In this document: positions 33,574 through 62,483 of the stretch, in pieces
Layout: each line of letters opens with the position of its first letter
Numbering within the stretch: the stretch's first letter is position 1
Notes under the pieces: generated by a model
Told to the model about the DNA's origin: nothing
What the model saw: only the letters and a program-made list of their open reading frames with translations
Databases searched by the model: none
Position numbers and translations under genes: made by a program
Origin: a virus
Length of the DNA stretch: 64,000 nucleotides
Reading direction: 5' to 3' (one strand)
IMG/VR virus record: IMGVR_UViG_3300030333_003061
Span: 22,118 to 86,117 of that record

Positions 33574-33574
33574 T

Positions 33575-33805: not shown

Positions 33806-33807
33806 AT

Positions 33808-35016: not shown

Positions 35017-35021
35017 GAACA

Positions 35022-35405
35022 ATGGATAAAATATGGGAAGAGACTATTAAGAAAGATTGCGGTTGTAGCAACTGCGAATGTGGAAATATGAAAAAGGCTA
35101 TATTAAAGCCAAGACCACCAAGAATAAAAACTGCACCTAAAACTAATCCAACGGTTGCTCAACCAACTGATAACAACCCTGATGATGACGATGATTATGA
35201 ATCATTACCTGAGAGATGTATGTGTAATTGGCCTAAATGTAAAAGAAAGGCAAGGTGGGGTTGTAGATGGTGTTCTGCTAGAATGTGTAATTATCATCAT
35301 GCTCAAGTAACAGATAGAAAGGTAGGAATACCGGGAACAAGTGCTTCAGAAATACATAACTTTGGAACAGGCACTTGTGTAGGAGAAGAATGGGTGTGGG
35401 ATTAA
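35022..35405 (+). CDS. Tag-like B-box/RING-like zinc protein (127 aa)
   Basis: The N-terminus MDKIWEETIK fits the tag core shifted by two residues. A CGCSNCEC cluster follows, a Pro-rich linker, then CMCNWPKCKRKARWGCRWC and MCNYHHAQ, paralogous to the product at 25853 (WP-x-C-x3-A layout). ATG 35022 is preceded by AGGTGA. Probable zinc-dependent binding module. Confidence 0.7.
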   Translation: MDKIWEETIKKDCGCSNCECGNMKKAILKPRPPRIKTAPKTNPTVAQPTDNNPDDDDDYESLPERCMCNWPKCKRKARWGCRWCSARMCNYHHAQVTDRKVGIPGTSASEIHNFGTGTCVGEEWVWD

Positions 35406-35545
35406 TGTCTTGGAAAAAGATATTAAAAGAAGATGAAGGATTAGGAGATACAGTATCTAGGATTACTAAAAGACTTGGAATAAAAGAATGTAAACCTTGT
35501 GCTGCTAGAAAGAAAAAATTAAACAGGATGGTGAAATATAAATGA
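35405..35545 (+). CDS. Tagged microprotein (46 aa)
   Basis: Tag MSWKKILK, then a short helix and CKPC followed by a basic tail (AARKKKLNRMVKYK). Overlaps the stop before it and the start after it. Unknown function. Confidence 0.6.
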   Translation: MSWKKILKEDEGLGDTVSRITKRLGIKECKPCAARKKKLNRMVKYK

Positions 35546-36552: not shown

Positions 36553-36553
36553 A

Positions 36554-41030: not shown

Positions 41031-41446
41031 GTTGGGAAAACATATTAAAGGCCAGAGGAAACTCTAAACATTTAAGTGTGTTCAAAGTATCAGAAGATGT
41101 TAGAAATGCTACAAGAAAATGGTCAAAAAAAGTTCAGCCAGGAAATTCTTTTTTCATTAGACATATTCGTAAAGCCATTATTCCTATATTAGAAGATATA
41201 TTAATGCCGAAATTGGAACCTACTATAAACCTAACGCGAAAAAAAGATGAATCAGATGATAATTATAAAAGAAGAAGAGTAATTCAAACCCAAAGAGTAA
41301 TTACTATATTTATTAATAAACATTTTAATCTCAAAGAAGCAGAAATAAGTAAATTTGATAAGACAATATTTAATGAATTAATGAGCCATCCAGATTGGAA
41401 TGTTACAGGAAAAACTGCTCATGTTGCGGATTTCGTGAGAGTATGA
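41027..41446 (+). CDS. Tagged protein (139 aa)
   Basis: Tag MSWENILK then ARG. Basic and helical (RKWSKKVQPGNSFFIRHIRK). ATGA overlap with the preceding stop. No family recognised. Confidence 0.65.
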   Translation: MSWENILKARGNSKHLSVFKVSEDVRNATRKWSKKVQPGNSFFIRHIRKAIIPILEDILMPKLEPTINLTRKKDESDDNYKRRRVIQTQRVITIFINKHFNLKEAEISKFDKTIFNELMSHPDWNVTGKTAHVADFVRV

Positions 41447-41505
41447 TAAAAAGGATTTGGGATTTTATTTATGGAGTATGGTGTTTAGGGAGGTTTAGAC
41501 CATGA
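41443..41505 (+). CDS. Possible microprotein (20 aa)
   Basis: ATGA overlaps link it to the genes on both sides. The peptide (MIKRIWDFIYGVWCLGRFRP) is hydrophobic and basic and could be amphipathic or membrane-active. Too short to be sure. Confidence 0.3.
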   Translation: MIKRIWDFIYGVWCLGRFRP

Positions 41506-41762
41506 AACAATGGATGATTAGAAAATTAATTTCATTTATGGGTAGCACCTATGTTTGGTTAGATAAAAAATTAGAACATCCTGATGGCCCAGTTCTAGGT
41601 TTAAAGATTGATGATGATTTTGCAGGTATGAGTAGATATGAATTATGCTGTCATATTGAAGATAAGTTTGCTTTAGATAGAAATTCGTTTTGGGAATTAG
41701 AATCGACACAAAAAATTAGATTTTGTTGCCAAACTGCTAGAAATATATTGGGAAAGAAATGA
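41502..41762 (+). CDS. Hypothetical protein (86 aa)
   Basis: No tag. Contains CCHIEDKF and FCCQTARN, so two Cys pairs, and a Trp-containing helix. GGGAGGTTTAGACC precedes the ATG. No family recognised. Confidence 0.55.
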   Translation: MKQWMIRKLISFMGSTYVWLDKKLEHPDGPVLGLKIDDDFAGMSRYELCCHIEDKFALDRNSFWELESTQKIRFCCQTARNILGKK

Positions 41763-41917
41763 AAAAAGAATGGGATATAGATTGGGAATACTGGAACGCA
41801 CAAGTGGAAGGATTCAAAGCACTTAAAAAGAAAAAGAAACTTTGGCGTGACCACAAAAATGAAAACAAAGAAATAGTTGATAAAATATATGAATGGTTTT
41901 GGGAGGTTGGAGAATGA
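41759..41917 (+). CDS. Trp-rich microprotein (52 aa)
   Basis: Eight-residue charged repeats with six Trp residues and a KKKKK stretch. Overlaps at both ends. No family recognised. Confidence 0.45.
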   Translation: MKKEWDIDWEYWNAQVEGFKALKKKKKLWRDHKNENKEIVDKIYEWFWEVGE

Positions 41918-42267
41918 CTTGGATGGAAGTATTAAAAGGAATAGAAACTGAATGGATTTCAGATTGTTGTAATACTGTAAGCCGAAGTATTATAAATGAT
42001 TTTAAAGGAACAGGAACCAATGAATGGGATAAATGGATAAAATTTGTTAAAGAATCTACACTTAATGGTAATTGTGAAGAACTATTAGAAGAATTAAATA
42101 AAATAGAAGACCATAACGGAATGGAATATTTCCAAAACGAATATTTGGATGGAATTACACTAACAAGCGGTGAAATAGCAGACTTATATTTACGACTAAG
42201 AGATTACACTAGAGATTATGAAGAATGCATAGAAGACTTAACGGGCTTAGACCACAGATTTAGATGA
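41914..42267 (+). CDS. Tagged CC-domain protein (117 aa)
   Basis: Tag MTWMEVLK. The body SDCCNTVSRSIINDF, NCEELLEELN and a late ECIEDL match the CC-domain family of the products at 28172 and 29669. ATG 41914 has GGGAGGTTGGAGA upstream. Confidence 0.7.
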   Translation: MTWMEVLKGIETEWISDCCNTVSRSIINDFKGTGTNEWDKWIKFVKESTLNGNCEELLEELNKIEDHNGMEYFQNEYLDGITLTSGEIADLYLRLRDYTRDYEECIEDLTGLDHRFR

Positions 42268-42278
42268 GAGGGATTAAT

Positions 42279-42563
42279 ATGGATTGGTTTAAATTAATTA
42301 AAACAAGAAGAGGTAAAAGACTTGACCATAATATGGAAAGAATACTTAGAGAAAAATTAACTACTCCAATGTCTACTTATCAAATTATTGGTCTTCTTTC
42401 TGACGGGATTCGTGAAATAAATGACGGAAGAAAACTAACAAATCAAAGACCATTATCTACTAGAGGAATACCTGATAGGTTATCATTGCCTCATATGCTT
42501 AAAGTGCATCCTAATATACGGATAATACCAGGACACACAGCAGAATATGTTTGGGAGGAATAA
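42279..42563 (+). CDS. Tagged winged-helix-like protein (94 aa)
   Basis: Tag MDWFKLIK. The body (REKLTTPMSTYQIIGLLSDG, then TRGIPDRLSLPHML and IRIIPGHTAEYVW) has the helix-turn-helix-wing order of a small DNA-binding domain. AGAGGGATTAAT upstream of ATG 42279. Confidence 0.65.
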   Translation: MDWFKLIKTRRGKRLDHNMERILREKLTTPMSTYQIIGLLSDGIREINDGRKLTNQRPLSTRGIPDRLSLPHMLKVHPNIRIIPGHTAEYVWEE

Positions 42564-42566
42564 TAT

Positions 42567-42947
42567 ATGACTTGGTTTGAAACAATTAAAAAATCCAAAG
42601 TGGATTTATTTATAGAAAGATATTTACAATTCAATGCTGATGTTAGAGGTCTTCATGGAACAGTAAAAAACCCTGAAGGATTTTTACCAAATCATGTTGT
42701 TACTGCTAATGAAGATAATGTAAATGATAGAATTAGAGAAGTAATTAAAAATTATAAGTCTATTCTTAAATTGGGAACAAGAGGACAAACTATTGGAGAT
42801 GCTAATTATGATAAGTCAAAGCCTATCGGGTATCAAGTTAAAATTACACCGGAAGAAAGAAAACAATATGAAGAATTTATACAAGATTTAGAAGATTTGA
42901 TTAAAACAGAATCTAAGTATGATAATTGGAAAAAGGAGAATGAATGA
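42567..42947 (+). CDS. Tagged protein (126 aa)
   Basis: Tag MTWFETIK. Helical, ends in a charged DNWKKENE. Overlaps the TerL leader. No family recognised. Confidence 0.65.
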   Translation: MTWFETIKKSKVDLFIERYLQFNADVRGLHGTVKNPEGFLPNHVVTANEDNVNDRIREVIKNYKSILKLGTRGQTIGDANYDKSKPIGYQVKITPEERKQYEEFIQDLEDLIKTESKYDNWKKENE

Positions 42948-42948
42948 T

Positions 42949-44388
42949 ATGACTGAATTAGAAAATCTTAATTTTGCTCACCAAATGGATATGGAGTTAT
43001 CTAAGAATTCATTTCCTTATTTCTTTAAAAATGTATTAGGTATGATGTATCCTAAATATATGGAAGAGTGGTTAAATACAATGGAAACTACAGATAGAAC
43101 AGTAATTGTTTGTAGTCGTGACCACGGAAAATCTGTATTTATGCATTCATGGGTTGTTTGGAATTTAGTATTCCAAGAGCCACCATTTCAAATGCTATAT
43201 ATTTCATCTAACCAAAAGCAGACATTAGTTCACATGAGAGAAATAGATAGAATGTTTAATATTCCTCAATTAAAGAAATTCAGACCATCAAGAGGATGGG
43301 CTATTGGTAACATTACATTAACTAATGGTAACTCTGTTCTTGAAAGGTCAGTAGGTTCTCAGATTCGTGGTCTTCACCCTCAAGAAATTATCATTGATGA
43401 CCCTCTAAAAGAGTTCAGTTTAGTAGGTATTCAAAGAGTCACAGATTGGTTCTTTGGTGATATGATTCCAACACTTCACCATACTGCTTCATTAAGAATG
43501 ATAGGAACACCATTTACTTATACTGACATTTTCTCACAATTAGAAGAAAATCAAGCATATACTGTAAGGAAATATCCATGTTTAGATTCAATGAATGAAC
43601 CACTATGGCCAGAAAGATGGAATTATGAAGCACTAATGCAAAGAAAAGCAGAAATTGGCTCTTTAAAGTTTACAAGAGAATATTTATGCATACCTGTTTC
43701 TACAGGAACTGCGTTATTTTCTCAAGACCATCTATTAAATGCTAAAAATGAACATGCTATGCTTAAATTGGGTCATAGAAAAGAAAAAGGATATAGATAT
43801 TATGTTGGCGTTGACCCTGCAATTTCTACAGATGGAGATTACAATGTAATAATGGTATTAGAGGTAGATGATAACCAAAATAAAACAATTGTTCATGTGG
43901 ATAGAGCAAAAAATGTGCAATTTAGAGAAAATATTGATAAATTACGGCTAATTGGTCAAATATTCCAACCAGAGGTAGTATTATATGAAACAAATACTTT
44001 CGCAAAAGCCTTTACACAGGAATTACGCTCAGTTTCGGACTTAAATGTTAGAGATTTCAACACAACTAGAAGAAAAAAGCAAGAAATTATCCTAAATCTA
44101 CAAATGAACTTTGAAAACGGTAAAATTCATCTCCCTTATGCTGATAATAATAGTAAAAAGATGACTAATGCTTTAATTGAAGAACTTTCGATGTTCTCCA
44201 TCACAGAATCCGGCAAGTTTGAAGGAGTGGGTGCGCATGATGATTTGGTTATGGGTCTTGCTTTAGCAAATGCAGCCTCACAGACTCCAACAGAAGCATT
44301 TATGCTCCTTGACGACATGGAGATATTTGATGCTCCACAGTCGCCTCAAATCGGGCTTCCGCAGGGTATTATGGGGCTGAATTTTTAA
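42949..44388 (+). CDS. terL: Terminase large subunit (479 aa)
   Basis: ATPase: Walker A variant SRDHGKS (56-62) and Walker B IIIDDP. Nuclease: VGVDPAIS with the first acidic residue of an RNase H-like site, VLYETN, and HDDLVMGLALAN near the C-terminus. Length is typical. It packages DNA through the portal. ATG 42949 follows GGAGAATGAT. No intein is present; a free-standing homing endonuclease follows directly. Confidence 0.95.
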   Translation: MTELENLNFAHQMDMELSKNSFPYFFKNVLGMMYPKYMEEWLNTMETTDRTVIVCSRDHGKSVFMHSWVVWNLVFQEPPFQMLYISSNQKQTLVHMREIDRMFNIPQLKKFRPSRGWAIGNITLTNGNSVLERSVGSQIRGLHPQEIIIDDPLKEFSLVGIQRVTDWFFGDMIPTLHHTASLRMIGTPFTYTDIFSQLEENQAYTVRKYPCLDSMNEPLWPERWNYEALMQRKAEIGSLKFTREYLCIPVSTGTALFSQDHLLNAKNEHAMLKLGHRKEKGYRYYVGVDPAISTDGDYNVIMVLEVDDNQNKTIVHVDRAKNVQFRENIDKLRLIGQIFQPEVVLYETNTFAKAFTQELRSVSDLNVRDFNTTRRKKQEIILNLQMNFENGKIHLPYADNNSKKMTNALIEELSMFSITESGKFEGVGAHDDLVMGLALANAASQTPTEAFMLLDDMEIFDAPQSPQIGLPQGIMGLNF

Positions 44389-45778: not shown

Positions 45779-47428
45779 ATGGTAGAAGAAAAAAGGACAT
45801 TTTCATTAGGAAACTTGTTTAGAAGACAAACTCCTAAACCAAAGGATAAAGAAGTATTTAATCCTGGTATTCAGGAAAAGAATAATGCTTATATGATTAC
45901 ATCGCCTATATTATATCATGTAGCACAACAATCAGTAATCGTAAGAACATGCACAACTCAATTAAAGAATGAAATCTTTAGAAGAGGATATACATGGGAA
46001 GAAAAGTTTGTTCAGAAGTGTAAAGATTGTGGTGCAGAACATGATTCTCCAGTAGAAGAATGTAAAGACTGTAGTTCTAGAAACTTAGTTAAACCTGATA
46101 AAAAACAACTTAAGTATGCTCATAAATTTTTAGATGGATATGTAAATAAATCAGAACAAATGTTTATTGATGTCTTAAAAGAATTAGAAGACGATTTGAA
46201 TATAATGGATGATGCATATATCATATTAGTTAAAGAATATTTCTTAGATGCTAATGGCGATATTAGAATGCATAGGATTAAAGAAATGTATAGGGGCGAC
46301 CCTGTAACTATGGCTTTATACACAGATGAAGATGGAACCAAAGGAACTTCTGGATTTACTTGTATTAGACACAGAAATATGATTTCTGAAGAAGACGGTA
46401 ATTCTTGTGAATATTGTGGTGAAAAACTATATCCAGTTTATTATGTTAATAGAGCACATGGAGAGGAACAATATTATTTGCAAGGAGAAGTATTACACTT
46501 TAGTAAATATAATCCAAGTAGGCTTTATGGATTATCTCCTGTATTGACATTATGGAATCATATTACTACTTTAATTGCCATGGAAAATTATGTAAATTCT
46601 TCATATTCTAAGGCTAGAATGCCTAGAGGATTATTAGCAGTTCAAACTAGAAATATTGATTCCATGAAATCCTTTTGGCGTGGAGTCAAAGAAAAGATGG
46701 AACAAGACCCTCATTTCATACCTGTTATGGGAATAGAGGCAGAAAACGGTAAAGGTTCTATTGAATGGATTAAGTTCTTAGATAGTCTAAAAGAGATGGA
46801 TTATATTTCTGTTAAAGACGACCTTAGAGATAGAATATCAGGTTTTTATGGTGTTAGTAAAGTATTCATGTCAGACAATTCTGCTAGTGGTGGTTTGAAT
46901 AATGAAGGTATGCAGATATTGGTGACTAATAGAGCAGTTGAGATGGCTCAAACAATATGGAATAATTATGTATTTCCATTCATTACTAAAGAGTTTGGTG
47001 TTACTGATTGGGAACTTAAATTACCACCATCAGAAGAAGAAGATGAATTATTTAGAATTAGATTAAGAGAATTAGAAGTTCAAGTTGCTGCTTCAATTAA
47101 GAATTTAGGATTTGAAGTAGAAATGGATGATGAAGGGAGATTTTCTTATCATAAGCCTCCACCTGAACCTCAAGGAAAACCTAAAGGTGAAGAAGAACAA
47201 ATTGAGCGTGACCCCTATGCTGGAACAAATATAGACCAACAACATTTAGGTGAAATGATGGAACAAGGAAATAGACCAACACAAGAAGAAGCGGGAGCAC
47301 CTGCAAAAGTAAAAGCAACAAGGAATAAACCAAGTTCAAGCACAGGGCCAGATAAGAGATTTACCGGATTACCAGCAGAAGCAGGTAATCAAAATGTAGA
47401 TAAAAGAACGGAGAGAAGAGTAGGATGA
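45779..47428 (+). CDS. Portal protein with two zinc ribbons (549 aa)
   Basis: Position after TerL and the order of motifs (SPILYHVAQQSVIVRTCTTQ, ILHF-like VLHFSKYNPSRLYGLSPV, ISGFYGVSKVFMSD near 360, WNNYVFPFI) identify a portal. Unusual are two zinc knuckle pairs: C81/C84/C95/C98 and a second set around 197-217 (CIRH, CEYC). The C-terminus is Pro/Gln-rich. It forms the dodecameric DNA channel. GGAGGGATAAT precedes the ATG. Confidence 0.9.
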   Translation: MVEEKRTFSLGNLFRRQTPKPKDKEVFNPGIQEKNNAYMITSPILYHVAQQSVIVRTCTTQLKNEIFRRGYTWEEKFVQKCKDCGAEHDSPVEECKDCSSRNLVKPDKKQLKYAHKFLDGYVNKSEQMFIDVLKELEDDLNIMDDAYIILVKEYFLDANGDIRMHRIKEMYRGDPVTMALYTDEDGTKGTSGFTCIRHRNMISEEDGNSCEYCGEKLYPVYYVNRAHGEEQYYLQGEVLHFSKYNPSRLYGLSPVLTLWNHITTLIAMENYVNSSYSKARMPRGLLAVQTRNIDSMKSFWRGVKEKMEQDPHFIPVMGIEAENGKGSIEWIKFLDSLKEMDYISVKDDLRDRISGFYGVSKVFMSDNSASGGLNNEGMQILVTNRAVEMAQTIWNNYVFPFITKEFGVTDWELKLPPSEEEDELFRIRLRELEVQVAASIKNLGFEVEMDDEGRFSYHKPPPEPQGKPKGEEEQIERDPYAGTNIDQQHLGEMMEQGNRPTQEEAGAPAKVKATRNKPSSSTGPDKRFTGLPAEAGNQNVDKRTERRVG

Positions 47429-47928
47429 ATGAGTGGTTTAATGTAGTTAAAGCCAGAAAGTATTATACTTTTGAGAATAGTGTTCCTCAGATGTATCATT
47501 TCTTAACAAGACTATTTGCGCCAGAAGAGAAAAGAAACCCAGCATTTCATAAGAAATATAAATCATGGATTGAACTTGATACAAATGACCAAGCGAGAAT
47601 AGTAGAGAAATTCATAAGAATGGATAAACAAAGAGAAGAAGCAGAAAAACAAACTAACCCTCGATGGTGGAGTCATAGTTATATTCCAGGAATTATTGTG
47701 GAATTTATGAATGACGGATATCCAATAGTTAATGAAGCCGAATTCCAACATTGGAGAAAATCGGCAATAGCAGAAAGAGAAGATGAAAATAATAATACTA
47801 GAGCACCTGCTGGAATGGGAGGATATAGTAATTGGTCATGGTTCCAAAGAAATTTGTATAAAGAATTAAAGGAAATATTTAGAAGAAACATTCCTACATC
47901 TAGAGGATATAAAAGAAGAAGTGATTAA
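47425..47928 (+). CDS. Tagged protein downstream of portal (167 aa)
   Basis: Tag variant MNEWFNVVK then ARK. Basic, Trp-rich. Overlaps the portal stop (ATGA). Its place between portal and protease supports a capsid link for tagged proteins. No family recognised. Confidence 0.65.
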   Translation: MNEWFNVVKARKYYTFENSVPQMYHFLTRLFAPEEKRNPAFHKKYKSWIELDTNDQARIVEKFIRMDKQREEAEKQTNPRWWSHSYIPGIIVEFMNDGYPIVNEAEFQHWRKSAIAEREDENNNTRAPAGMGGYSNWSWFQRNLYKELKEIFRRNIPTSRGYKRRSD

Positions 47929-50427: not shown

Positions 50428-52944
50428 ATGGTTGAAACCGGAGTCTTTGTTGAGAAGAAAACAGGTGCTATGGCGAAGCGTGTCCTTGATTTTTATGAGG
50501 ATGTTCGCTATAAATATCTATCTGCTTTAGAGGACAAGAAAGAATACGGTAATGACTGGAAAAAGTCAATTAAGAAGATTAGAGAAGACTTTGATGGACT
50601 TGGAGATTTCAGCGCAGAAATGAAAAAATACCTTGATGAAGACAATGTATTCAATGATGAAGTTAATAATCCTGAATCGAATGCTGCTGAAAAATTATAT
50701 AATTCAATAAAAAGAATGCGCTTTAATTCAGATGAAATTAATGACCCCTTCGCTAAACAAATGGGAGATAAGGTTGTTGAAACACTTGTAAAGAATCCTT
50801 CTGTTTATGCTATGTTCATCCACTACGCTCTACGCGCACACGCGCACAGCATTAAAGAAGAAGCATGGAAAGCCCACGATTTGAAGCCGGATGAGATTAC
50901 ACAAGGGGCTAAAGGTTTAGACCTCAAATTAGAAGATATACCTCTTTATATTACTGAACACTATGGCGACAATGCAGATACTACTAGAGTTAAAGGTAAG
51001 TTTAATGGAGCATTAAAATTATTAGAAAAAGTATACATGGAAGAAAATACAAAAGATAATTGGGATGCGCTTTTAGCATTAGATATATCTAAGTCTGAAG
51101 ATGAGGATGATGATAAAGAAGAAAAATCAGAAATAGATTTTATTGTTCCTAATAAACCAATGTATAGAATATTTGAAATAGACGACATGAAAGAATTAAA
51201 AGGTTTTAGTGGAGAATACTTAGTTCAAGAAAAATTTGATGGTATTAGAATACAAATTCATAAGTCTGATAAGAAAGTTAAAATTTACACATATAATGAG
51301 AAAGACATAACTAATAAATGTAAGGATATTGTCGAAAAGGTAGAACAAAAAAGATTTGGCGATATGATATTAGATGCTGAATTAATTTTGTATGATGGCG
51401 ATGAACCTTTACATAGAGCAGATACAATAGCACATCTGTTTAAGGATAAATATAAAGATGCTACATTAAAGGCAAGAATTTTTGATATAATGAATCATGA
51501 TGGAAAAGACCTTACTGATTCTCCATTAAGAGAAAGAATAAATATTCTATTCTATCAGTTATCTCCTGGTTCATCTGATTTATTTAATTTCCCTTCAAAG
51601 AAAAACTCTAGGATTGCAGATTCATTAAGTGAAATAGAAAAATACGCTAAAGATATAATGGAATCTAAAACATCAGAAGGAGTAGTAATAAAGGACATAG
51701 AATCAACATACTATCTAGGTAATAAAAAGAATCCTAAGTGGGTTAAATGGAAGAAGTTCGTAGACTTAGATGTAATTGTATTAGATAAGAAAAAGACAAA
51801 ATCAAATCTTTATTCATATACTGTTGGTGTTGGCCCTCTTAGTGGTGAAGAAAGTAGGGAACACAATGGAACAGAATTTGAAGGAAAAACATATTTACCT
51901 GTAGGTAAAGCCCTTAACACTAAAGAGGTTGTTAGTATCGGTTCAATCATTAGAGTTAAAGTAGACGAAGTGAGAAGAAAAGGAACTGGATATAGTCTTT
52001 ATTCTGCAAAGGTAATTGAAATACCTGAAGTAGAAACACCAGAGAAACTTATTACTTTAGAATTATTATCAAAAGAAGGAAGAAAGTCTCTTAAGTATGA
52101 TGTTCAGGATGCTTTAACTAAATATACTATAACAGATGGAATTCATGGTGAAGCAGATATTATAATGAAATCAGATTATGAAGGATTTACTATCTATGGG
52201 TTTGAAGGAGATTCTTTAATGGAGAAAAATGCTTTAGCAGATATTGATTTATGGAAAGAACAATTAACGGAAATGATGAAATCTCATACATCTGATGCAA
52301 GAGTTGCAGTTAAAAACTTTTTAAGAAAAGAAGGAAAACCAATGGAAGTAAAAGACATATTTGAATTTATGTCTAAAGATAAACCAGAATTAGTAGAAAA
52401 ATTATGGGAAGGCAAAATGAATAAATTTACAAAATGGATGGATGATTATGATGATTTTATTAGAGTATCAGCAACTACATATAAAGATAATGAATTAAAA
52501 ATAATTAAAGACGATGAACCATCAGAAAAAGAAGGAAAATATAGATTATATGTTAGAAAAGATAATAACATAGAATTACTCATTAATTACAAAGGCAAAT
52601 CAATGGCATGGATAATTGATATTGACGACACAGAAGATATTTATAACTTATTTGGAAAAGCCGGTAAGTTTCCTGCTCAAGTCGCAGAAAAGAGTCAACC
52701 TGATAAATTATTAGATAAAGGAAATATAATATTGGGTGTCCAAAAGCATGGTTATCACGAATATAAAATAGACGGAGACAAATTTAAGACTAGACTTCAC
52801 TTTAGAGTTGTTCCTATCAAAGACGAAGATAAATGGATAGTATGGACAGGATTTAAACAGAAGATGCTAGATTCAAAAGAAGACAAAGGAATATGGGATA
52901 TTGCAGAAGACAGGCATAAAAAGTTAGCCATGCAAATCGCTTAA
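50428..52944 (+). CDS. Large multidomain protein with ATP-dependent DNA ligase core (838 aa)
   Basis: Central ligase domain: motif I EKFDGIR with K269, DAELILYDG (motif III), EGVVIKD (motif IV) and KWVKWKK (motif V), then an OB-like region to about 560. About 240 N-terminal residues are unlike LIG1. About 270 C-terminal residues include a winged-helix-like part (ARVAVKNFLRKEGKPMEVKD) and a final beta-rich domain (LHFRVVPIKDEDKWIVWTG). Its place between portal and protease in the late block, and a second ligase at 1862, suggest a packaged or packaging-linked nick-sealing or repair enzyme. GTGATTAA precedes the ATG. Confidence 0.85.
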   Translation: MVETGVFVEKKTGAMAKRVLDFYEDVRYKYLSALEDKKEYGNDWKKSIKKIREDFDGLGDFSAEMKKYLDEDNVFNDEVNNPESNAAEKLYNSIKRMRFNSDEINDPFAKQMGDKVVETLVKNPSVYAMFIHYALRAHAHSIKEEAWKAHDLKPDEITQGAKGLDLKLEDIPLYITEHYGDNADTTRVKGKFNGALKLLEKVYMEENTKDNWDALLALDISKSEDEDDDKEEKSEIDFIVPNKPMYRIFEIDDMKELKGFSGEYLVQEKFDGIRIQIHKSDKKVKIYTYNEKDITNKCKDIVEKVEQKRFGDMILDAELILYDGDEPLHRADTIAHLFKDKYKDATLKARIFDIMNHDGKDLTDSPLRERINILFYQLSPGSSDLFNFPSKKNSRIADSLSEIEKYAKDIMESKTSEGVVIKDIESTYYLGNKKNPKWVKWKKFVDLDVIVLDKKKTKSNLYSYTVGVGPLSGEESREHNGTEFEGKTYLPVGKALNTKEVVSIGSIIRVKVDEVRRKGTGYSLYSAKVIEIPEVETPEKLITLELLSKEGRKSLKYDVQDALTKYTITDGIHGEADIIMKSDYEGFTIYGFEGDSLMEKNALADIDLWKEQLTEMMKSHTSDARVAVKNFLRKEGKPMEVKDIFEFMSKDKPELVEKLWEGKMNKFTKWMDDYDDFIRVSATTYKDNELKIIKDDEPSEKEGKYRLYVRKDNNIELLINYKGKSMAWIIDIDDTEDIYNLFGKAGKFPAQVAEKSQPDKLLDKGNIILGVQKHGYHEYKIDGDKFKTRLHFRVVPIKDEDKWIVWTGFKQKMLDSKEDKGIWDIAEDRHKKLAMQIA

Positions 52945-52983: not shown

Positions 52984-54192
52984 GTGTCCGAATTAGGATT
53001 AGTGAAAAGTGATACTAATGGTGACTTTGATATATTAAAATCAGATGAACTAATAATTGGTGGATATGCTTCTATTGAAATTGTAGATAAACAAAATGAC
53101 CTTATTACTCTTAGTGCATTAAATGAAGCAGTTAAGAAATATATGGAAGTAAAGAAATATAGAAATGTAATGTCAAATCATTCAAATGTTCAAGTCGGAG
53201 ATGTTATAGAAAAATATAGAGATAAAAATGGAACGCTTCATAAAACACAAGTAGATGATGTAGGATTTTATGTTGTAATTAAATTAAGAGACGACATTGA
53301 AAAAGCAAAAGAAATTTCTAGAGGAATTAGAAAAGGAACATTACGCTCATTTAGTATAGGTGGTCAAGCACTATCAAAAAGAAAGAAAACTAGCCCTGAT
53401 ATTGGCGAGTATAATGAAATAGATAAATTAGAACTCCATGAAGTCACAATTTGTGAAAAAGGAATAAACCCTGAAGCGAAATTTGACATTCTGAAGGAGG
53501 ATAACGAAATGACTGAGAGATTGGAAAAAGCGTTAGAGGAACTTAACGACCTTATGAAGGAAGTTAATGAACTTAAGAAAGAAGAAGGCACAGACCCTGA
53601 TTTGTCTGGTAGTGAAGAACTAATGGAAGAATCAATGGATGATGCTAGCGTAGAAGCAATGGATAATGATGAAGAAGAGTCGTCAGACGATGAATCATAT
53701 GAAGCCATGAATAACTACGATGATGAACAGAAAATGAGAACAGGGCCAGAAGGCCCAGTAGAACATGGTTATGGCGAAGATTTGGCTGCAGGAAAGAAAC
53801 ACTCTCAAGCAGGCCAAATAGGTCAATTATACAAAGAATGGCAGAACGAAGATTTTGCTACTCTTGACCTATCTACTGAAAATGTAGAAAAAGCCTATGA
53901 AGCGTTTAAGGCTGAACAATTAGAAAAGATGGCCTATGATACTTTGAAGACCAAGTTTGCTGAAAGGTTTGCTAATGAGCAATCTGTCCGAAAGGCTGAT
54001 GTTGCACGAAGCGAATATGACGCTAAGAACGAAGTTGAATCTCTAAAGGAAGAATTTGCTTCCTTAAGAAAGAGCCTAACAGAACAATCAAATGAGATTG
54101 TTAAGGCTCAAACAATTGAGGTTCCTGACTTTGATGTTAGTGAAATGTCTTGGACAGACATTCATAATGTCATTAGCCAGTTTGAGGAGTGA
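52984..54192 (+). CDS. Prohead maturation protease fused to scaffold (402 aa)
   Basis: HK97 gp4/S78-type protease core: GGYASIEIVDKQNDL, H66 in VMSNHSN, S124 in RSFSIGGQ, and LHEVTICEKGINPEA. The acidic helical remainder (about 165-402) is a scaffold. FDILK occurs at both ends of the protease domain (residues 15-19 and about 157), matching possible self-cleavage sites after Lys. The C-terminus EMSWTDIHNVIS resembles the W-x-x-I tag core. Start is GTG 52984 with GAGGAGTGGGAG upstream. It sits directly before the MCP. Confidence 0.9.
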   Translation: MSELGLVKSDTNGDFDILKSDELIIGGYASIEIVDKQNDLITLSALNEAVKKYMEVKKYRNVMSNHSNVQVGDVIEKYRDKNGTLHKTQVDDVGFYVVIKLRDDIEKAKEISRGIRKGTLRSFSIGGQALSKRKKTSPDIGEYNEIDKLELHEVTICEKGINPEAKFDILKEDNEMTERLEKALEELNDLMKEVNELKKEEGTDPDLSGSEELMEESMDDASVEAMDNDEEESSDDESYEAMNNYDDEQKMRTGPEGPVEHGYGEDLAAGKKHSQAGQIGQLYKEWQNEDFATLDLSTENVEKAYEAFKAEQLEKMAYDTLKTKFAERFANEQSVRKADVARSEYDAKNEVESLKEEFASLRKSLTEQSNEIVKAQTIEVPDFDVSEMSWTDIHNVISQFEE

Positions 54193-54197
54193 TTAAG

Positions 54198-55574
54198 ATG
54201 AGTAATTACATTAAGACAATGAAAGACTTAGAATCCGCTACCTACGGAGTTCGTGGGGGAAGCGGTAATGCTTTGTTAAAGAGCGCAGGTGTTGTTTCGT
54301 GGGGTTCTTCGGGAACAGGACACGATACCGATGTTGCTGGTTTATCCGGTGCTTCGGGCCTTGCTGACTTGTATAACAGGGCTTATGGACAAAAAGTATG
54401 GTCAATGCTAAACCAAGAGGTTAATGCTTTGGCTATGTTAGCAAAGAGGCCATATACCACTAGTGGATGGCGAGTGCTAAAGAAGAGAGCAGAAGGTGGT
54501 TCAGGTTCAACCTTCGATGTTTCATTAAGTGGAGCAGCAACCGCAAGAGGCGTTGATGCACCATCTGCTGATAATATCGGTGGTGTTGCTGAGAACGCAT
54601 CTTTAGGAACAGGTAATGATATTCCGGCCATTACGCCAGAATACACTAAGTTATTTACCAGCCCAAAGACTGTGGCTCATTTGTTTGAGTTCTCAGAATT
54701 GGCTCTTGAAATGGCTAAGATTGATGACGGCGTAGGTGATTTACGCGCATTAATCCGTGAAGACATGGGTAAGCATCATGCAGAAGTTCAGAATAAGATG
54801 CTTCTTATGCCATTAGAGGCATATGACCAAGTTATCACAGGTAGCGATAACCGCGTTAATATCAACAAGAATTACACTTCATTGTTGAAGGTTGTTGCTT
54901 CAAGTCAAGAAATGGAAGCAATGGTTGATGCGTCAATGTTGGATGATTCAACATCTAGCACAGGCGGTCTAACTGCTACTCTTAGCACTATTTATGGTGC
55001 AACAGACAGGCAATTAGTCGGTAATGCGTATAACCCATCTTTCCTTGATGCTGAAGTAGATTTCGGTGATGGATATGCAGCAGGTAATGCTCGCGTATTA
55101 ACTTTAACCATCATTAATGATATGCTACGAAGGCTAAGAGAAAACGGTGGTTCACCAAAGGTTATCTTAACTGGATATGATACTATTCAGCATCTAGGTG
55201 ACCTATTGCAAGCCCAAGAAAGATTTATGGATAGAAAAGAGGTAATTCCTACACATGGCGGTGTTCGTGGTGTAAAGGGTAGAGAAGTCGGTTTTAGAGT
55301 CGCTACCTATTACGACATACCAATCATTCCTTGTAAGGATATGCCTAAGACTGGAAATGGTTCTAACAAGTTAAGTGATATTCTTATCCTTGATACAGAC
55401 CATCTATGGTTAAGTGTGTTGAAGCCAACTCAATACTTTGAGGATGGAATTGACCATGGAAACCCATTTGGTGTTGGAACTCTAGGTAATCAAGCAATGT
55501 ATCGAACAATTGCTGAAACAGGTTGTTCCTTCTTTAAGGGGCAGGGTAAGATTACCAACATTACCAGCGCATGA
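54198..55574 (+). CDS. Major capsid protein, HK97 fold (458 aa)
   Basis: Follows the protease and has higher G/C codon use, as expected for the most expressed gene. N-terminal ALLK28-S29 would be a cleavage site like that of HK97 (after Lys). ELALEMAKIDDG, LRALIREDMGKHHAEVQNKM (spine-helix region) and PKVILTGYDTIQHL with VGFRVATYYDIPIIPCKDMP (P/A domains) fit the fold. GAGGAGTGATTAAG precedes ATG 54198. Confidence 0.9.
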   Translation: MSNYIKTMKDLESATYGVRGGSGNALLKSAGVVSWGSSGTGHDTDVAGLSGASGLADLYNRAYGQKVWSMLNQEVNALAMLAKRPYTTSGWRVLKKRAEGGSGSTFDVSLSGAATARGVDAPSADNIGGVAENASLGTGNDIPAITPEYTKLFTSPKTVAHLFEFSELALEMAKIDDGVGDLRALIREDMGKHHAEVQNKMLLMPLEAYDQVITGSDNRVNINKNYTSLLKVVASSQEMEAMVDASMLDDSTSSTGGLTATLSTIYGATDRQLVGNAYNPSFLDAEVDFGDGYAAGNARVLTLTIINDMLRRLRENGGSPKVILTGYDTIQHLGDLLQAQERFMDRKEVIPTHGGVRGVKGREVGFRVATYYDIPIIPCKDMPKTGNGSNKLSDILILDTDHLWLSVLKPTQYFEDGIDHGNPFGVGTLGNQAMYRTIAETGCSFFKGQGKITNITSA

Positions 55575-56426: not shown

Positions 56427-56738
56427 ATGTCAGGCGGTTGTAATAATACAGGTGTTTTAACTGTTTCAGGTTCTGGAACGGCATCAACACAAGCCATTAC
56501 TGGTCGAATTAGAATACAATCTATTAAGGTCAGTAATGATGCAGCAGTGGATAAAACAGTAACTTTCTATGATGGAACAGCAAATACTGCAACAAAGATA
56601 CATGAGGCTCATGTCGGTGCAGTAAATGAAAACTATGATTTTGATTTTCATGGTTCAATTGCTATTAATGGGGTATTCGTTGAAGTTACAGGTAGCGGAA
56701 GCAATAGTGGGGTAAGTTTCTCAATTCAATATTTCTGA
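56427..56738 (+). CDS. Small beta-sandwich protein (103 aa)
   Basis: Gly/Ser/Thr-rich strands (NNTGVLTVSGSGTASTQAI, IRIQSIKVSND, DKTVTFYDGT, GVFVEVTGSGSNSG). Looks like a capsid decoration or fibre-type beta protein. AAGGAGATACTTAA upstream. Confidence 0.6.
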   Translation: MSGGCNNTGVLTVSGSGTASTQAITGRIRIQSIKVSNDAAVDKTVTFYDGTANTATKIHEAHVGAVNENYDFDFHGSIAINGVFVEVTGSGSNSGVSFSIQYF

Positions 56739-56746: not shown

Positions 56747-57148
56747 ATGCCAGCACTAGAAAAAGACACAAAACTCGTAATGACGATATTATTCGTTGGT
56801 GCGATTAGCGGAACCAATGTTTACTTTTACGGTAAATATGGAAGCATGATTGCTTTTGGTGAATACGCCCATGCGTTAATATTTGGGCTAATGACCATAG
56901 GAGCAATCTTAGCAATGAAAGCCATATTTGATTTGGCTTTGAATGATAGAATAGAAATGCTTCTATTAGATAGAAGAATTTCTGCTTATTGGGCTAAAAA
57001 GCAAAGAGATGAACAACAAAGAGAAAAGATTAGACAAAGTATGTATCAGAACACTCAAGTTCAATCAGGATATATGCCTGTTCCTCCTATGCCTGTTCAG
57101 CCAGAAGAACCTAGAGTTCCAACATCATTTTTAGCACAAATAGAGTAG
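56747..57148 (+). CDS. Two-span membrane protein (133 aa)
   Basis: Hydrophobic helices at about 8-30 (LVMTILFVGAISGTNVYFYG) and 38-62 (HALIFGLMTIGAILAMKAIF), then a charged, Gln/Pro-rich cytoplasmic tail. Followed closely by another membrane protein and a GTPase. Role unknown; membrane protein genes within a structural block may encode holins or virion-membrane contacts. Confidence 0.7.
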   Translation: MPALEKDTKLVMTILFVGAISGTNVYFYGKYGSMIAFGEYAHALIFGLMTIGAILAMKAIFDLALNDRIEMLLLDRRISAYWAKKQRDEQQREKIRQSMYQNTQVQSGYMPVPPMPVQPEEPRVPTSFLAQIE

Positions 57149-57156
57149 TGAGATAA

Positions 57157-57384
57157 ATGCTTGAAGCAATAACAATGGGCTTTGATGAAACAACATTAGC
57201 CTATGATTTGCAAAGAGCGCATTCTGCTGATATTTGGTTTTTAAGAGCCAGATACTTCTTTTGGGGAACAGTATCTACAATTGTTGGTTTTTTCGTAGGA
57301 CATGCTTTACCCTCCTTTGGGATAAATGTTTATCAAGAAGCATGGGAGGGCTTCATATCAATTTGGCATCATCTTGTGGGGTGA
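57157..57384 (+). CDS. Single-span membrane protein (75 aa)
   Basis: One clear transmembrane helix (YFFWGTVSTIVGFFVGHAL) after a 35-residue N-terminal part. Linked by 4-9 bp gaps to the membrane protein before and the GTPase after. Function unknown. Confidence 0.65.
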   Translation: MLEAITMGFDETTLAYDLQRAHSADIWFLRARYFFWGTVSTIVGFFVGHALPSFGINVYQEAWEGFISIWHHLVG

Positions 57385-57388
57385 ATAA

Positions 57389-58057
57389 ATGTCATTAATG
57401 ACTGGTTTCGTCATAATAATGATAGAAAAAGCAGGAGCATTATGGAGAAGAATTCATGCAATTCCTTTTGGTGTATATGGGGCTACACAAGTAGGAAAAA
57501 CAACATTACATCATCAAATGAGAACAAGAGGAGAAGTTCCAGATATTAAAGAAAGAACAGTAGGTCGAGGCAGGGCGACTAGAAAATCAATTAAAATAGA
57601 TGGAGATTTACATACAATTAAAACATCAGATATTGGAGGAGAAACTCTTTATTGGGGCGAATGGCTTAAAGATATGAGAACAAGAAAAGTCAAATATATT
57701 ATTTTTATGATTGATGATAGACACATGGATAAACATTATGATATAGAACAACAATTATGTTGGAGTTTTTTAGTCGATACAATATGTTCCCCTTATTGGG
57801 ATGCAATAAATAGAAAGCATAGAAAAAAAGCACATGATTATCCCCTTGCTGTAGGTTTATGGGCAAATAAATTTGATTTATGGAAAGACAAATATCCTTA
57901 TGATGATATACAAAAACACCCAATATTTGAATCATTCAAAGACGGAATGGCTAAATTAAATGATAGAGGAATCCCTTGTTTCAAATATATAGTAAGTGCA
58001 AAATCAGATTCAGAAATGGTATATAGAGGAATAGCAACAATGGTGGATGATTATTAG
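57389..58057 (+). CDS. Ras/Arf-like small GTPase (222 aa)
   Basis: Complete G-motif set: G1 GATQVGKTT (31-39), G3 DIGGE (81-85), G4 NKFD (160-163), G5 SAK (203-205). DIGG is the Arf/Sar-like form of G3. A hydrophobic N-terminal segment (MTGFVIIMIEKAGALW) could be an amphipathic membrane anchor. It follows two membrane-protein genes. A small GTPase in a viral structural block is unusual; membrane remodelling or assembly control is inferred. Confidence 0.85.
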   Translation: MSLMTGFVIIMIEKAGALWRRIHAIPFGVYGATQVGKTTLHHQMRTRGEVPDIKERTVGRGRATRKSIKIDGDLHTIKTSDIGGETLYWGEWLKDMRTRKVKYIIFMIDDRHMDKHYDIEQQLCWSFLVDTICSPYWDAINRKHRKKAHDYPLAVGLWANKFDLWKDKYPYDDIQKHPIFESFKDGMAKLNDRGIPCFKYIVSAKSDSEMVYRGIATMVDDY

Positions 58058-58065
58058 GTGATAAA

Positions 58066-58137
58066 ATGAATACGACAAGATTTTTAGAAGAAAATACATC
58101 AATAATAGATTTTTATTTACGGAGGAATTATTTATGA
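58066..58137 (+). CDS. Leader-like microprotein (23 aa)
   Basis: Starts after a clean TTAGGTGATAAA site and ends in an ATGA overlap with the next gene, whose own GGAGG lies inside it. Probably translated, perhaps only for coupling. Confidence 0.4.
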   Translation: MNTTRFLEENTSIIDFYLRRNYL

Positions 58138-58805
58138 GTATGCAATATAATCCTCCTTCATTAATTGGTGCTACTAATGCTACTGCTACTAATCCATTTT
58201 TACCACCAATTAAATTTGCTCGCGCTGCTGGCGGAGTAATGAATTATGATTATAAGAGTAACAAGCCAAAGAAACAAGTAAAAGAAATGATTTCTATTCT
58301 ATGGCCAGAAAAGAAAAGATTCCTTAAGATTCCATATGGGTTTAAATTCAATACAAGAGATAGATGTGTTGTTTGTGGAACTCATAAAAGATGGGATGCT
58401 TCTGACCCAATGAGGCCAACAATACCACTTCATAAAGTTAGAAAGGGTTATCCAATGAGAGGAACTTATTGTGATAAACATGCAGCATTACATAGACAAT
58501 ATGAAATGTTAGAACAACAAATAATAGCCGATGAACATGGCTTAGAATTTTCTTCATACATTCCTAAACCTAAAGTGCCTAAAATGTTGCAATCAGCACC
58601 GCTAACTTCATTAAGGCAATCCGATATCGAGGCATTGAGTGAGGTTGGCTGGACAATAAGACCCCCACAAATGCAATCAGAAACATTAGAAGATGAAATG
58701 TTTAGATTAACAATTGAAACTCAAGCAATTAATAGAAGAATATTAAAACTAATTACAGATGGTGCAGAAGTAATTCCTCAAAAAATCGAAGAGGAGGTAG
58801 AATAA
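58134..58805 (+). CDS. Zinc-finger late protein (223 aa)
   Basis: A CVVC and CDKH pair (RDRCVVCGTHKRWD ... GTYCDKHAALHRQY, residues about 79-122) forms a zinc site. The C-terminal third is helical. GGAGGAATTATTT precedes the ATG. Contains the only CCATATGG outside the island (58332). Unknown function. Confidence 0.65.
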   Translation: MSMQYNPPSLIGATNATATNPFLPPIKFARAAGGVMNYDYKSNKPKKQVKEMISILWPEKKRFLKIPYGFKFNTRDRCVVCGTHKRWDASDPMRPTIPLHKVRKGYPMRGTYCDKHAALHRQYEMLEQQIIADEHGLEFSSYIPKPKVPKMLQSAPLTSLRQSDIEALSEVGWTIRPPQMQSETLEDEMFRLTIETQAINRRILKLITDGAEVIPQKIEEEVE

Positions 58806-58806
58806 T

Positions 58807-59514
58807 ATGGGTTTATTTGGAACAAGTAATAGAGCGTTATCTAATCAGATAACATCTCAAGGACAATCAGATTTTAAGGTAATGAATAATTTATTAACAT
58901 TACAAGATAATCATGTTGAAGAATTCTTTCAATATCATGGCGAAGCATTTTTATCATCTTTTGAAAAATTATTTGAAGATGTAATAGAAAGAGTAGTAAG
59001 CCAAATGCTAACTAAACTAAAATTTGTTAGTAATTCTAATGGAGAAATTTCTGTTCATTCAGATGCTCTTAGAGAATATGAAACAATTACTGCTGAAAAT
59101 ATCCAATTAGATTTACAAACTCTTTTAGCCTCTGCATTAAATACAGAAGTTATTATGCAAAGAAAAATGGCTAAACAGCAATATCTTGAGGCACAAGGTT
59201 TTTCTACATCACAAATGCCTCAAACACAACAAGTGCAACAACAACCAAATATGGCTAATCCTCAAGGTCTAGCCCCATCACAGATTCAAGGAAGTAATGC
59301 GGGGGTTGCTGCTAATAACATGATGATGCAACAACAAGCAGCATTCAATAATACTAGTGGCTATCCTGTTCCGCCGTCAGGTTATGACCAAATGAACAAT
59401 CCATATTGGATTGACCCAATGACCGGACAACCAACATATACCCCACCTGCTAGCGGTTTGGGCTTAGGTAATGCTATTAGTAAAGGATTGGCCTGGGCTT
59501 CTTGGTTAGCATGA
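58807..59514 (+). CDS. Late protein with Gln/Pro-rich C-terminus (235 aa)
   Basis: N-terminal helical domain (about 1-125) followed by a Gln/Asn/Pro-rich low-complexity region (QTQQVQQQPN) and a Gly-rich hydrophobic end (GLGLGNAISKGLAWASWLA). The last 20 residues could associate with membrane. No family recognised. Confidence 0.6.
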   Translation: MGLFGTSNRALSNQITSQGQSDFKVMNNLLTLQDNHVEEFFQYHGEAFLSSFEKLFEDVIERVVSQMLTKLKFVSNSNGEISVHSDALREYETITAENIQLDLQTLLASALNTEVIMQRKMAKQQYLEAQGFSTSQMPQTQQVQQQPNMANPQGLAPSQIQGSNAGVAANNMMMQQQAAFNNTSGYPVPPSGYDQMNNPYWIDPMTGQPTYTPPASGLGLGNAISKGLAWASWLA

Positions 59515-59524: not shown

Positions 59525-61366
59525 ATGGACATTAAAATACCTAATCAATTTAAGGTGCATAATCGCACCTATAATTTAGGTGAAGACATAGAACTCACTA
59601 GGTCTAATTTAGAGGGAAATCCCTCTAATCATGCACTATTTAAGTATATGTTAAAATATCTTATGGCTCCAATGGATAATAAATTGGATAAAGTTTCTAA
59701 TAGTATGAAAATGCTATTAAAACCTGAAGTCCTAGAGAGGGCTTCTGGTTATACCCATGATATGGATATAGATGCAGAAGAATATGAAAAGCATATTAAA
59801 TATGCATGGGAAGAATTAAGCGAATCTGTCATGTATTCATCTGAGTCAGCACTTGATTCAGAAGGCAAAGAAGCAGAAAAAGATGGAGAAAAAATAACTA
59901 TTGAAGGAGGATTGTTATATATTTTATCACAGCAAGGATGGCTACAATCTCAAGAAAAAGAATTAATTGATAAAATAATAAGGGCAATGCCTGAAAGAGG
60001 AAAAAGAGAACCATTTAAAGAAATACTAGATACTGTAGATGATTCAGGAAAGCCCTCTATTGGTAGAATAGGACAACAAAAAATAATGGGATACAGAACA
60101 GGAGAAAGAGCATCTAAATTAATGAATGCAGCAAACTATAAGCAATTATTCTATCCTGTAATAGATTTATTAAAAACAGTAAAGGTTGAAGAAAAACCAA
60201 ATGAAAAGATTGGTAAGATAGATAATAAGAAAATCATAGAATACAAACATTATCCAAAACCAAGACAAATAGATGGAAATAAAATATTAGATTCATCAGA
60301 TATTATTATTCATTTCGATAATGCATTTTCTGCTCTTAGAAAAGAATACGGTATGTCAATGAAAATGGAAAGACTTACATCAGATGATGAAATAGAAAAT
60401 ATGTTAAATGGTGAAATATTAAAATATGATTGGAACCTTGATGAATCAAACTTATTAGATGCAGAAGGATTACCAACAAAACAATATGCCATTGGTGAAT
60501 TAAACCCTGATGAACAATTAACTGAATGGAAAAGGAGAAATTGGGATTATGATTCAGAAGGGCTTTCTAATGAAGAAATATATTATGCTAGAAGAATTAA
60601 TTTAAAATTAGAATATGATAAACAATTAGATAAAGGAGAAATAGAAAAAGAATTATTATTTAATTTATATTTATATAGAATAATTAGTAAAGATAAAATG
60701 AAACAATATATAGATTTTGGAAAATATGGAGACCAAGGCTTTGATTTTACAGAACCTGAATATAAAGTAATGGGAAAGGTTTTAGAAGATAAAGAAAACA
60801 GAACAGGCATTGAACAAAAATTACATCAACAATATACAATTCATGGAATATCCAAAATTAATGAAAGGGAAGCAAAAAGATTAAGAGGAGAAAATAAGAG
60901 TCTTATTCAAGGATTACCAGATAGTCAATTTTCTGATAGGAAACTCTTTGATAATATATCAGACCCTGATATTTCAAAAATAGATTTAAGAAATGCAGAA
61001 AATGTAGGTGAGTTTAGAGAAGAATTACATAAAGCAATTACTCCTGGAACAGAAGGAAAATTAAAATTTTCAATAGGAATAATGGCTACAAAATCTCATG
61101 GCGGTCATGTATTATTATCTGTGGAATTTATCCCAAAAGTAAAAGGGCCATATGCTGATTATCACGCAAAAACATTTGCTGAAAGAGGAAAAGAAAAAGT
61201 CATACCTTCAAATTTAAAACCAAGTCAAATAAAAAATCAACCTTCTTTAGCAGCAAGAGGAGGACAAAACTTATGGTATGAAGGCATACCAAATGCATTA
61301 ATGTTTCTATATTATATCAAAAAGCAACTAACAAGATTAAATAAAATGGTGAAGCCTTATGTCTAG
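59525..61366 (+). CDS. Hypothetical late protein (613 aa)
   Basis: Charged alpha/beta protein, no tag, no recognised motif. Lies between the GTPase cluster and the neck genes, so a virion or assembly role is likely. AGTGGAGTAAT precedes the ATG. Confidence 0.6.
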   Translation: MDIKIPNQFKVHNRTYNLGEDIELTRSNLEGNPSNHALFKYMLKYLMAPMDNKLDKVSNSMKMLLKPEVLERASGYTHDMDIDAEEYEKHIKYAWEELSESVMYSSESALDSEGKEAEKDGEKITIEGGLLYILSQQGWLQSQEKELIDKIIRAMPERGKREPFKEILDTVDDSGKPSIGRIGQQKIMGYRTGERASKLMNAANYKQLFYPVIDLLKTVKVEEKPNEKIGKIDNKKIIEYKHYPKPRQIDGNKILDSSDIIIHFDNAFSALRKEYGMSMKMERLTSDDEIENMLNGEILKYDWNLDESNLLDAEGLPTKQYAIGELNPDEQLTEWKRRNWDYDSEGLSNEEIYYARRINLKLEYDKQLDKGEIEKELLFNLYLYRIISKDKMKQYIDFGKYGDQGFDFTEPEYKVMGKVLEDKENRTGIEQKLHQQYTIHGISKINEREAKRLRGENKSLIQGLPDSQFSDRKLFDNISDPDISKIDLRNAENVGEFREELHKAITPGTEGKLKFSIGIMATKSHGGHVLLSVEFIPKVKGPYADYHAKTFAERGKEKVIPSNLKPSQIKNQPSLAARGGQNLWYEGIPNALMFLYYIKKQLTRLNKMVKPYV

Positions 61367-62483
61367 ATTAAAGTCGTCAAGTGATTTTACTGGTATTAAT
61401 CCTAATTATACCAACGGGAAAGGGTATTATACTACCCATGTTGATGTGTCTGATTTACTTCAGATTACTCCATCAACAGATGCAGACGGTGATGGTGATT
61501 TTTCATATTTCACTACTTCGTCTACTCCATCTAAAGCAATGGTGGGAAAAATAATAAAGAAAGTAGAAGGAAAGATTGATAACTGGATTAAGCAATCTTA
61601 TAGACCTGAAATAATTGAAAACGAAGTTCATAACTTTGAATCAGGTAGATTTGTAATATATCCAGCAGTTCACTGGAAAGATTATCTTGGGTTTATTCAA
61701 TTAACATATCCTAAGTTAAGAAAGGTAATTAAATTAGAAGTATATCAAGGGGATGAATGGAAAAACCTTGCTTCTGCTAGTGTTAAATATACTCCCCCTG
61801 CTTCTGCTACTACACCTGCATTTACACTTAAATTATTAGTTGCTGGATATACTTTCACATTAACTAAGGGAAATTCTAATGGGTTCTATGATGTTTATGG
61901 ACAAAAAACAACTGTTTCTCAAATATGCGATGCAATAAATGAGGTATTTCCTCACGATACTGCTCAATTTACAGGAGAAACTTCTCCAAAAACAACAACA
62001 GAAGACGGCGGCACAACGAAAAATGTTTCTGATTTCTTTTATGCTTCTCCTGCTAGTGATGGAAAATCGGTTGAAATTTCTTCTCTATTACCATCTGATG
62101 CTGGAAGTATTTGTTCAATTATCGAAACCATTGATGGAACGGCTGTGACTACTAATTTCACAGATAATGAAGATTCTGGTAGAAATGAAGATTGGTGGGT
62201 AATAGGCTCAGAAGGAAAGATATTCTTCAAAAAGGAATGGCCTTTCCTAAAGAACAATTCAGTTAGGGTAACTTATATTACAGGCGCATCTAGAGTTCCA
62301 GCAGAAATACACGATGCTGCAACTAAAATGGTTGCCGCTGAAATATTAGTACATGATGATAATAGTATTTTAATTGCCGAAACAGGGGCTAATATAGATT
62401 TGAAAACTAAGCATGATATTTTAATGCAAGAGGCAAATGATTTAATTAAGGGTAAACAAAACCTATTACATTTAATTGATTAA
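61359..62483 (+). CDS. Head-tail adaptor (gp6-like) with inserted domain (374 aa)
   Basis: VSDLLQITPST, TPSKAMVGKIIKKVEGKIDN and SYRPEI are typical of the first helices of head-tail adaptors, and AEIHDAATKMVAAEILVHDD with IDLKTKHDILMQEANDLI form the closing helices. The beta-rich middle (about 130-270) is an insertion. Would sit under the portal ring. Confidence 0.75.
   Translation: MSRLKSSSDFTGINPNYTNGKGYYTTHVDVSDLLQITPSTDADGDGDFSYFTTSSTPSKAMVGKIIKKVEGKIDNWIKQSYRPEIIENEVHNFESGRFVIYPAVHWKDYLGFIQLTYPKLRKVIKLEVYQGDEWKNLASASVKYTPPASATTPAFTLKLLVAGYTFTLTKGNSNGFYDVYGQKTTVSQICDAINEVFPHDTAQFTGETSPKTTTEDGGTTKNVSDFFYASPASDGKSVEISSLLPSDAGSICSIIETIDGTAVTTNFTDNEDSGRNEDWWVIGSEGKIFFKKEWPFLKNNSVRVTYITGASRVPAEIHDAATKMVAAEILVHDDNSILIAETGANIDLKTKHDILMQEANDLIKGKQNLLHLID

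Follow-up and report, generated by a model that had tools for sequence, protein, structure and literature searches.

Gene content of the locus and its genomic setting

The locus holds two membrane-protein genes and a small GTPase gene on the plus strand, within the structural block of a tailed virus genome. The window, i.e. the whole 64 kb stretch of DNA analysed here, is the final part of an 86-kb IMG/VR virus record. The first gene, MEM1 (56747..57148), was delineated by its open reading frame, hydropathy and synteny, and encodes 133 aa with two predicted membrane segments at approximately residues 10–28 and 43–61 (Kyte-Doolittle 19-mer means of 1.55 and 2.14). Its C-terminal tail is soluble, first basic and then Pro-rich. 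MEM2 (57157..57384; 75 aa), recognized by conservation and hydropathy, has a soluble and highly conserved tract at its N-terminal side, AYDLQRAHSADIWFLRAR, which is followed by a single membrane segment. By the same 19-mer measure this segment is sub-threshold in the window (1.40) and clear in relatives (1.67–2.08). The GTPase gene (57389..58057) encodes 222 aa. MEM1 starts 8 bp downstream of the preceding gene, and gaps of 8 bp and 4 bp separate MEM1 from MEM2 and MEM2 from the GTPase gene. The initial annotation had placed a GTPase gene directly after two membrane-protein genes, and the open reading frames bear this out.

The GTPase was assigned by its motifs, invariant alignment columns, an AF2 model and Foldseek comparison. 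Its P-loop (G1), GATQVGKT, spans residues 31–38 (57479..57502) and is followed by the switch I threonine of G2, Thr57 (57557..57559), by DIGGE as G3 (residues 81–85; 57629..57643), NKFD as G4 (residues 160–163; 57866..57877) and SAK as G5 (residues 203–205; 57995..58003). G2 was recognized by its invariance in the alignment and extends the set of G1, G3, G4 and G5 motifs noted earlier, all of which were recovered together with the hydrophobic N-terminus. The latter is a predicted hydrophobic to amphipathic helix at residues 2–22 (57392..57454), a candidate membrane anchor; in the AF2 model it covers residues 3–22, with a hydrophobic moment of 0.35–0.38 from residue 4 on. Across an alignment of 79 GTPase sequences M1, S2, G6 and F7 are invariant, and E13 is conserved in at least 90%. 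The G1–G5 residues are invariant in the same alignment, in which pairwise identity falls to 52%. The GTPase is under strong purifying selection, with a median dN/dS of 0.08 (MEM1, 0.13; MEM2, 0.17; capsid protein, 0.14) and a mean identity of 68%, against 67% for the capsid protein of the same genomes. Since the G1–G5 residues withstand this divergence at such a low dN/dS, the motifs are real and do not reflect a chance match.

The surrounding genes support the structural setting proposed for this unit. Upstream lie TerL and the portal gene, then the prohead protease (Pfam S78, 8e-10) and the major capsid protein of the SU10/HK97 type (54189..55574, plus strand). The immediate left neighbour of MEM1 encodes a small head-block protein of 103 aa (56427..56738, plus strand), for which sister viruses have weakly matching homologues at the corresponding position. 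Downstream, a gene for 374 aa occupies the head-tail-connector position (61359..62483, plus strand) and is homologous to genes of marine sister viruses (E to 1e-119) and of Druskaviridae (E 5e-22).

The record as a whole carries replication genes on the minus strand and structural genes on the plus strand, has a G+C content of about 33%, and encodes PolB and DNA ligase. These opposed blocks and the low G+C, together with capsid, portal and TerL proteins related to Druskaviridae within the Caudoviricetes, are the genome features of the order Magrovirales, and the gene layout agrees with the magrovirus family description (PMC10768690). The nearest named relatives of the capsid protein are those of Druskaviridae haloviruses, at about 24% identity. 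The earlier view of a tailed archaeal virus fits these capsid relatives and the magrovirus-like layout, as judged from sequence. From relatives described in PMC10768690 and PMC12999244 we infer Poseidoniales as the host, and the GTPase-bearing clade, which is very common among tailed ocean viruses, probably infects archaea.

Several other features of this genome were observed. Two distinct ATP-dependent DNA ligase genes are present in the one virus, the first in the replication block (1862-3403, minus strand) and the second, encoding 838 aa, in the structural block directly before the prohead protease (50428-52944, plus strand). PolB is encoded in two pieces (at 12950-13372 and 14345-14836 of the record, ahead of the window). 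The split is shared by the other magrovirus-type records tested, PolB is unsplit in three sister viruses, and the Aoguangviridae map in PMC10768690 enters PolB-NTD and PolB-CTD separately. Between the opposed gene blocks, about 5 kb (18500-24000) contain few long open reading frames and show a GC skew near zero; this is possibly a regulatory or origin region. Furthermore, about 20 otherwise unrelated proteins (24300-43000, plus strand, and 47425-47928) share the N-terminal tag M-[TSNDK]-W-x-x-[ILV]-[ILV]-K, e.g. MDWKELIK, MKWFELIK, MNWWEILK, MSWFGILK, MTWFDLVK and MSWENILK. The tag also occurs in the loci L188, L190, L216, L227, L229 and L230. In the sister lineage it was found at 71 of 634 ORF starts and at 3 of 3267 internal methionines, and in Druskaviridae at 0 of 650. 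We take the tag to resemble the T4 capsid-targeting peptide, and by this analogy it may load head cargo for co-injection.

Fold and family of the GTPase

The structure of the GTPase was modelled with AF2 from 79 sequences (pLDDT 85.4, pTM 0.82), superseding a model from 30 close sequences (pLDDT 68). The predicted topology, b1-a1-b2-b3-a2-b4-a3-b5-a4-b6-a5, is that of a complete small-GTPase fold, to which the N-terminal helix and, inserted after helix 3 and ahead of strand 5, a short basic hairpin are added. Among the best 50 matches listed by Foldseek against the PDB, small GTPases ranked highest, mainly Rab and Ras, with Rab4 at E 1.6e-10 and TM scores (target) of up to 0.73. The named matches among the best 50 in a viral structure library were giant viruses of eukaryotes, and none of these 50 was a tailed phage. 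Profile searches against PDB sequences likewise returned Rab33B for a 30-member profile (E 3e-4) and Ras for the 79-member profile.

Matches to curated families were weaker. The window GTPase alone gave weak Pfam matches; TIGR00231 (small_GTP) matched 30 of 30 members, though not strongly, and MMR_HSR1 matched 67 of 79, with Roc, SRPRB, Arf and Ras matching fewer and none of them strong. SRPRB similarity was weak and found in 39 of the 79 members. Searches in PHROG, PADLOC, NCBIfam and phage records returned little, with no PADLOC match. No close cellular homologue was detected in a GTDB-based collection, where the only two matches were both viral contigs. These contigs (L108 and L109) had been binned in a bacterial Maricaulis MAG, apparently by contamination.

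By its motifs and its modelled fold the protein is an intact small GTPase of the Ras superfamily (TRAFAC), and it is not demonstrably a member of Arf/Sar within it. The Arf/Sar label of the initial annotation therefore stands in part. On its side are the G3 motif, which is DxGG in all 153 unique family members, the GKTT P-loop, a Trp after switch II, the predicted N-terminal helix and the lack of any C-terminal lipid tail. Against it, G5 is SAK, invariant in the 79-sequence alignment, instead of the CAT or CSV of the Arf/Sar type. The position of the catalytic Gln (Gln71 equivalent), which is Gln or His in Arf/Sar1, carries Glu in most members and Gln in the rest (of 153 unique members, 114 have Glu and 39 have Gln at the fifth position of G3), and there is no Gly2 for myristoylation. 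Pfam Arf (PF00025) was matched weakly by 21 of 79 members (best E 2.1e-5) and not by the window GTPase at E 1, and Rab and Ras rank first in both structure and profile searches. The likeness to Rab/Ras, which includes NKxD and SAK, is limited in turn by an identity of about 13–20%, by DxGG in place of DTAG and by the basic hairpin inserted before strand 5. SRP receptor beta (SRPRB), to which the weak Pfam similarity points, is also a membrane-linked GTPase, but the viral locus has no SRP context.

Sar1 and Arf contact membranes through their N-terminal helix. As the alignment shows no C-terminal hypervariable or CAAX tail, membrane contact of the viral GTPase, if any, would be through the predicted N-terminal helix as in Sar1/Arf, whereas Rab and Ras use a C-terminal prenyl group. 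A packaging or SRP ATPase identity was ruled out, TerL being a separate gene (42919-44388) and motifs and fold being those of a small GTPase; the grouping with SRP or packaging ATPases for which the initial annotation had allowed did not appear in the comparisons made. These viral GTPases probably form a deep, previously unplaced branch in prokaryote-associated small-GTPase sequence space.

A five-gene module confined to one clade

Scans of viral contigs for relatives of the GTPase yielded 74 and then 303 and 323 stretches, in overlapping sets. The three-gene unit, whose conservation the initial annotation had named as a check, proved strictly conserved: the order MEM1-MEM2-GTPase was found in 232 of 232 loci holding all three genes, and the gaps had medians of 8 and 6 bp. 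The GTPase is single in the records searched. To assess its presence independently, loci were drawn by their capsid protein and not by the GTPase, and at least 4.5 kb had to follow the capsid gene. Where the capsid protein was close (scoring >600 bits against the magrovirus profile), 60 of 60 loci had the GTPase; where it was more distant (marine sister and Druskaviridae-type viruses), 0 of 38 did. The 600-bit line was set after seeing the data, with no locus listed between 551 and 664 bits, and the counts refer to contigs, many of them closely related, and not to independent events. The GTPase query found no match in the complete records of 15 genomes from sister viruses and haloviruses, while the same query matched 10 of 10 magrovirus-type records. 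Nor was there a convincing open reading frame for a diverged P-loop GTPase downstream of the sister-lineage capsid gene. Genes for 223 and 226 aa at a similar place in Druskaviridae were considered as homologues and rejected, as they encode connector-position proteins.

We compared the sites with and without the unit, using the capsid gene as the left and the connector-position gene as the right anchor. In marine sisters the order is protease, capsid, a 118-aa homologue, a gene for about 105 aa, a 103-aa-like gene, a large gene (788-977 aa) and the connector-position gene. Homology to magrovirus-type viruses is clear for the protease, capsid, 118-aa and connector-position genes. In magrovirus-type viruses, the 103-aa gene is separated from the large gene by MEM1, MEM2, the GTPase gene and two further genes that co-occur with it. 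The fourth gene (58134..58805, plus strand; 223 aa) has a conserved CxxC...CxxH zinc-finger-like stretch, and the fifth (58807..59514, plus strand; 235 aa) encodes a protein with a conserved N-terminal LLTLQDNHVEEFFQYHGE and a Gln/Pro-rich C-terminal part; neither belongs to a known family. All five genes are jointly absent from the sisters between homologous flanking genes. The finding is thus larger than three genes and comprises a five-gene module (56747-59514), which is a lineage trait specific to one large magrovirus-type clade. Some relatives have small genes inserted within the module (L227 and L230). The 613-aa gene in the interval between the module and the connector-position gene (59525-61366) is variable: homologues of it were detected in just 35 magrovirus-type loci, and the 788-977-aa gene found in its place in sisters shows no detectable homology to it.

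We also examined covariation within the module. Once the capsid signal was partialled out, distances correlated best between MEM2 and the GTPase (partial distance correlation 0.72), which fits a working pair but would also follow from their co-inheritance as a unit. Taken together, a small GTPase is a core gene of fixed position in an abundant marine virus clade, gained or lost with two membrane proteins.

Proposed role and comparison with known systems

In eukaryotes, regulated processes at membranes characteristically involve Ras-type switches. We consider the best explanation of the locus, with a probability of about one half, to be that the GTPase is the switch of a late five-gene module that times a GTP-controlled membrane step. 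Most likely it would be a switch that docks on the membrane in the late phase and serves the assembly or the release of virions. The module would be made late, alongside the virion proteins. With GTP bound, the N-terminal helix of the GTPase would dock on the host membrane at MEM1/MEM2, with the conserved cytosolic tract of MEM2 as the likely receptor or regulator, and cycling between GTP and GDP would time a membrane step of the late phase. In this step, heads under assembly could dock and be released at the membrane, or the membrane could be opened in a controlled way for exit from a host without a peptidoglycan wall; we give the two about equal weight. The module is missing from sister tailed viruses, so it is not a general requirement for either HK97 head assembly or release. 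What makes the exit reading attractive is that archaea have no peptidoglycan and that, at the time of review, an egress mechanism was understood for just two archaeal viruses (PMC4456609). As holin genes were, in addition, not found in isolated archaeal viruses (PMC4456609), an uncharacterised membrane device is plausible.

The GTPase could instead serve host control, mimicking or titrating a small GTPase of the host, or the regulators of that GTPase, and thereby reprogramming the host membrane or secretion or blocking superinfection. MEM1 and MEM2 would then be its membrane partners, and the position in the structural block would just give late or strong expression. Ras-superfamily proteins are indeed cellular regulators, and the closest viral folds are acquired Rab/Ras proteins of giant viruses. 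We nevertheless regard this as rather unlikely. Accessory or arms-race genes are normally patchier, mobile and faster evolving, whereas the GTPase occurs throughout its clade at a constant position and equals the capsid protein in conservation. Neither a close cellular homologue in the GTDB-based collection nor a PADLOC match was found.

It also seems improbable that the module contributes to the virion for entry, with MEM1 and MEM2 packaged or ejected to aid DNA across the host membrane and the GTPase as an assembly chaperone or virion enzyme. The module genes do lie between head-decoration and connector genes, and in Druskaviridae a comparable position ahead of the connector is occupied by a small protein that has a single hydrophobic segment (HCTV-1 gp116, HVTV-1 gp124). 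However, this protein has no detectable homology to MEM1 or MEM2, the module proteins lack the N-terminal tag common to about 20 other proteins and possibly marking head cargo, and we know of no virion GTPases in tailed viruses. Finally, we give hardly any weight to a reading of the P-loop protein as an NTPase for packaging or of the SRP type, or as a decayed GTPase without function, in either case with no membrane role: its similarity to every curated GTPase family is low, but TerL is separate, NKxD and SAK are intact, the best structural matches listed are small GTPases and dN/dS is 0.08.

Returning to a late GTP-controlled membrane step, a tentative extension is that the five genes together encode a dedicated membrane machine under GTP control with an Arf/Sar-like logic, in which nucleotide-gated docking on viral membrane receptors would serve virion assembly at the archaeal membrane or exit across it. 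If true, this would be a kind of device undescribed for any tailed virus. The module offers a defined set of proteins for studying how tailed archaeal viruses exit from cells without a peptidoglycan wall.

The novelty is a protein of known superfamily in an unexpected place. To our knowledge, hardly any Ras-type switches have been described in tailed viruses that infect microbes, and we know of no counterpart there of a conserved five-gene membrane-GTPase module. The magrovirus literature searched contained no earlier report of the GTPase, although a gene-table label in Philosof 2017, Zhou 2023 or Prabhu 2025 is possible. The Druskaviridae viruses HCTV-1 and HVTV-1 share a homologous capsid protein, protease and connector-position gene with the virus described here, but have no homologue of the GTPase, MEM1, MEM2, or the 223-aa or 235-aa protein. 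For a membrane protein in head assembly, a working analogy may be T4 gp40, a tailed-phage membrane protein that is a chaperone of portal assembly, though the T4 case involves no GTPase. The closest viral folds are the Ras/Rab-like GTPases of giant viruses (Pithovirus, Klosneuvirus and Tupanvirus). Those are acquired accessory genes in viruses of eukaryotes, whereas here the GTPase is a fixed core gene of the head block.
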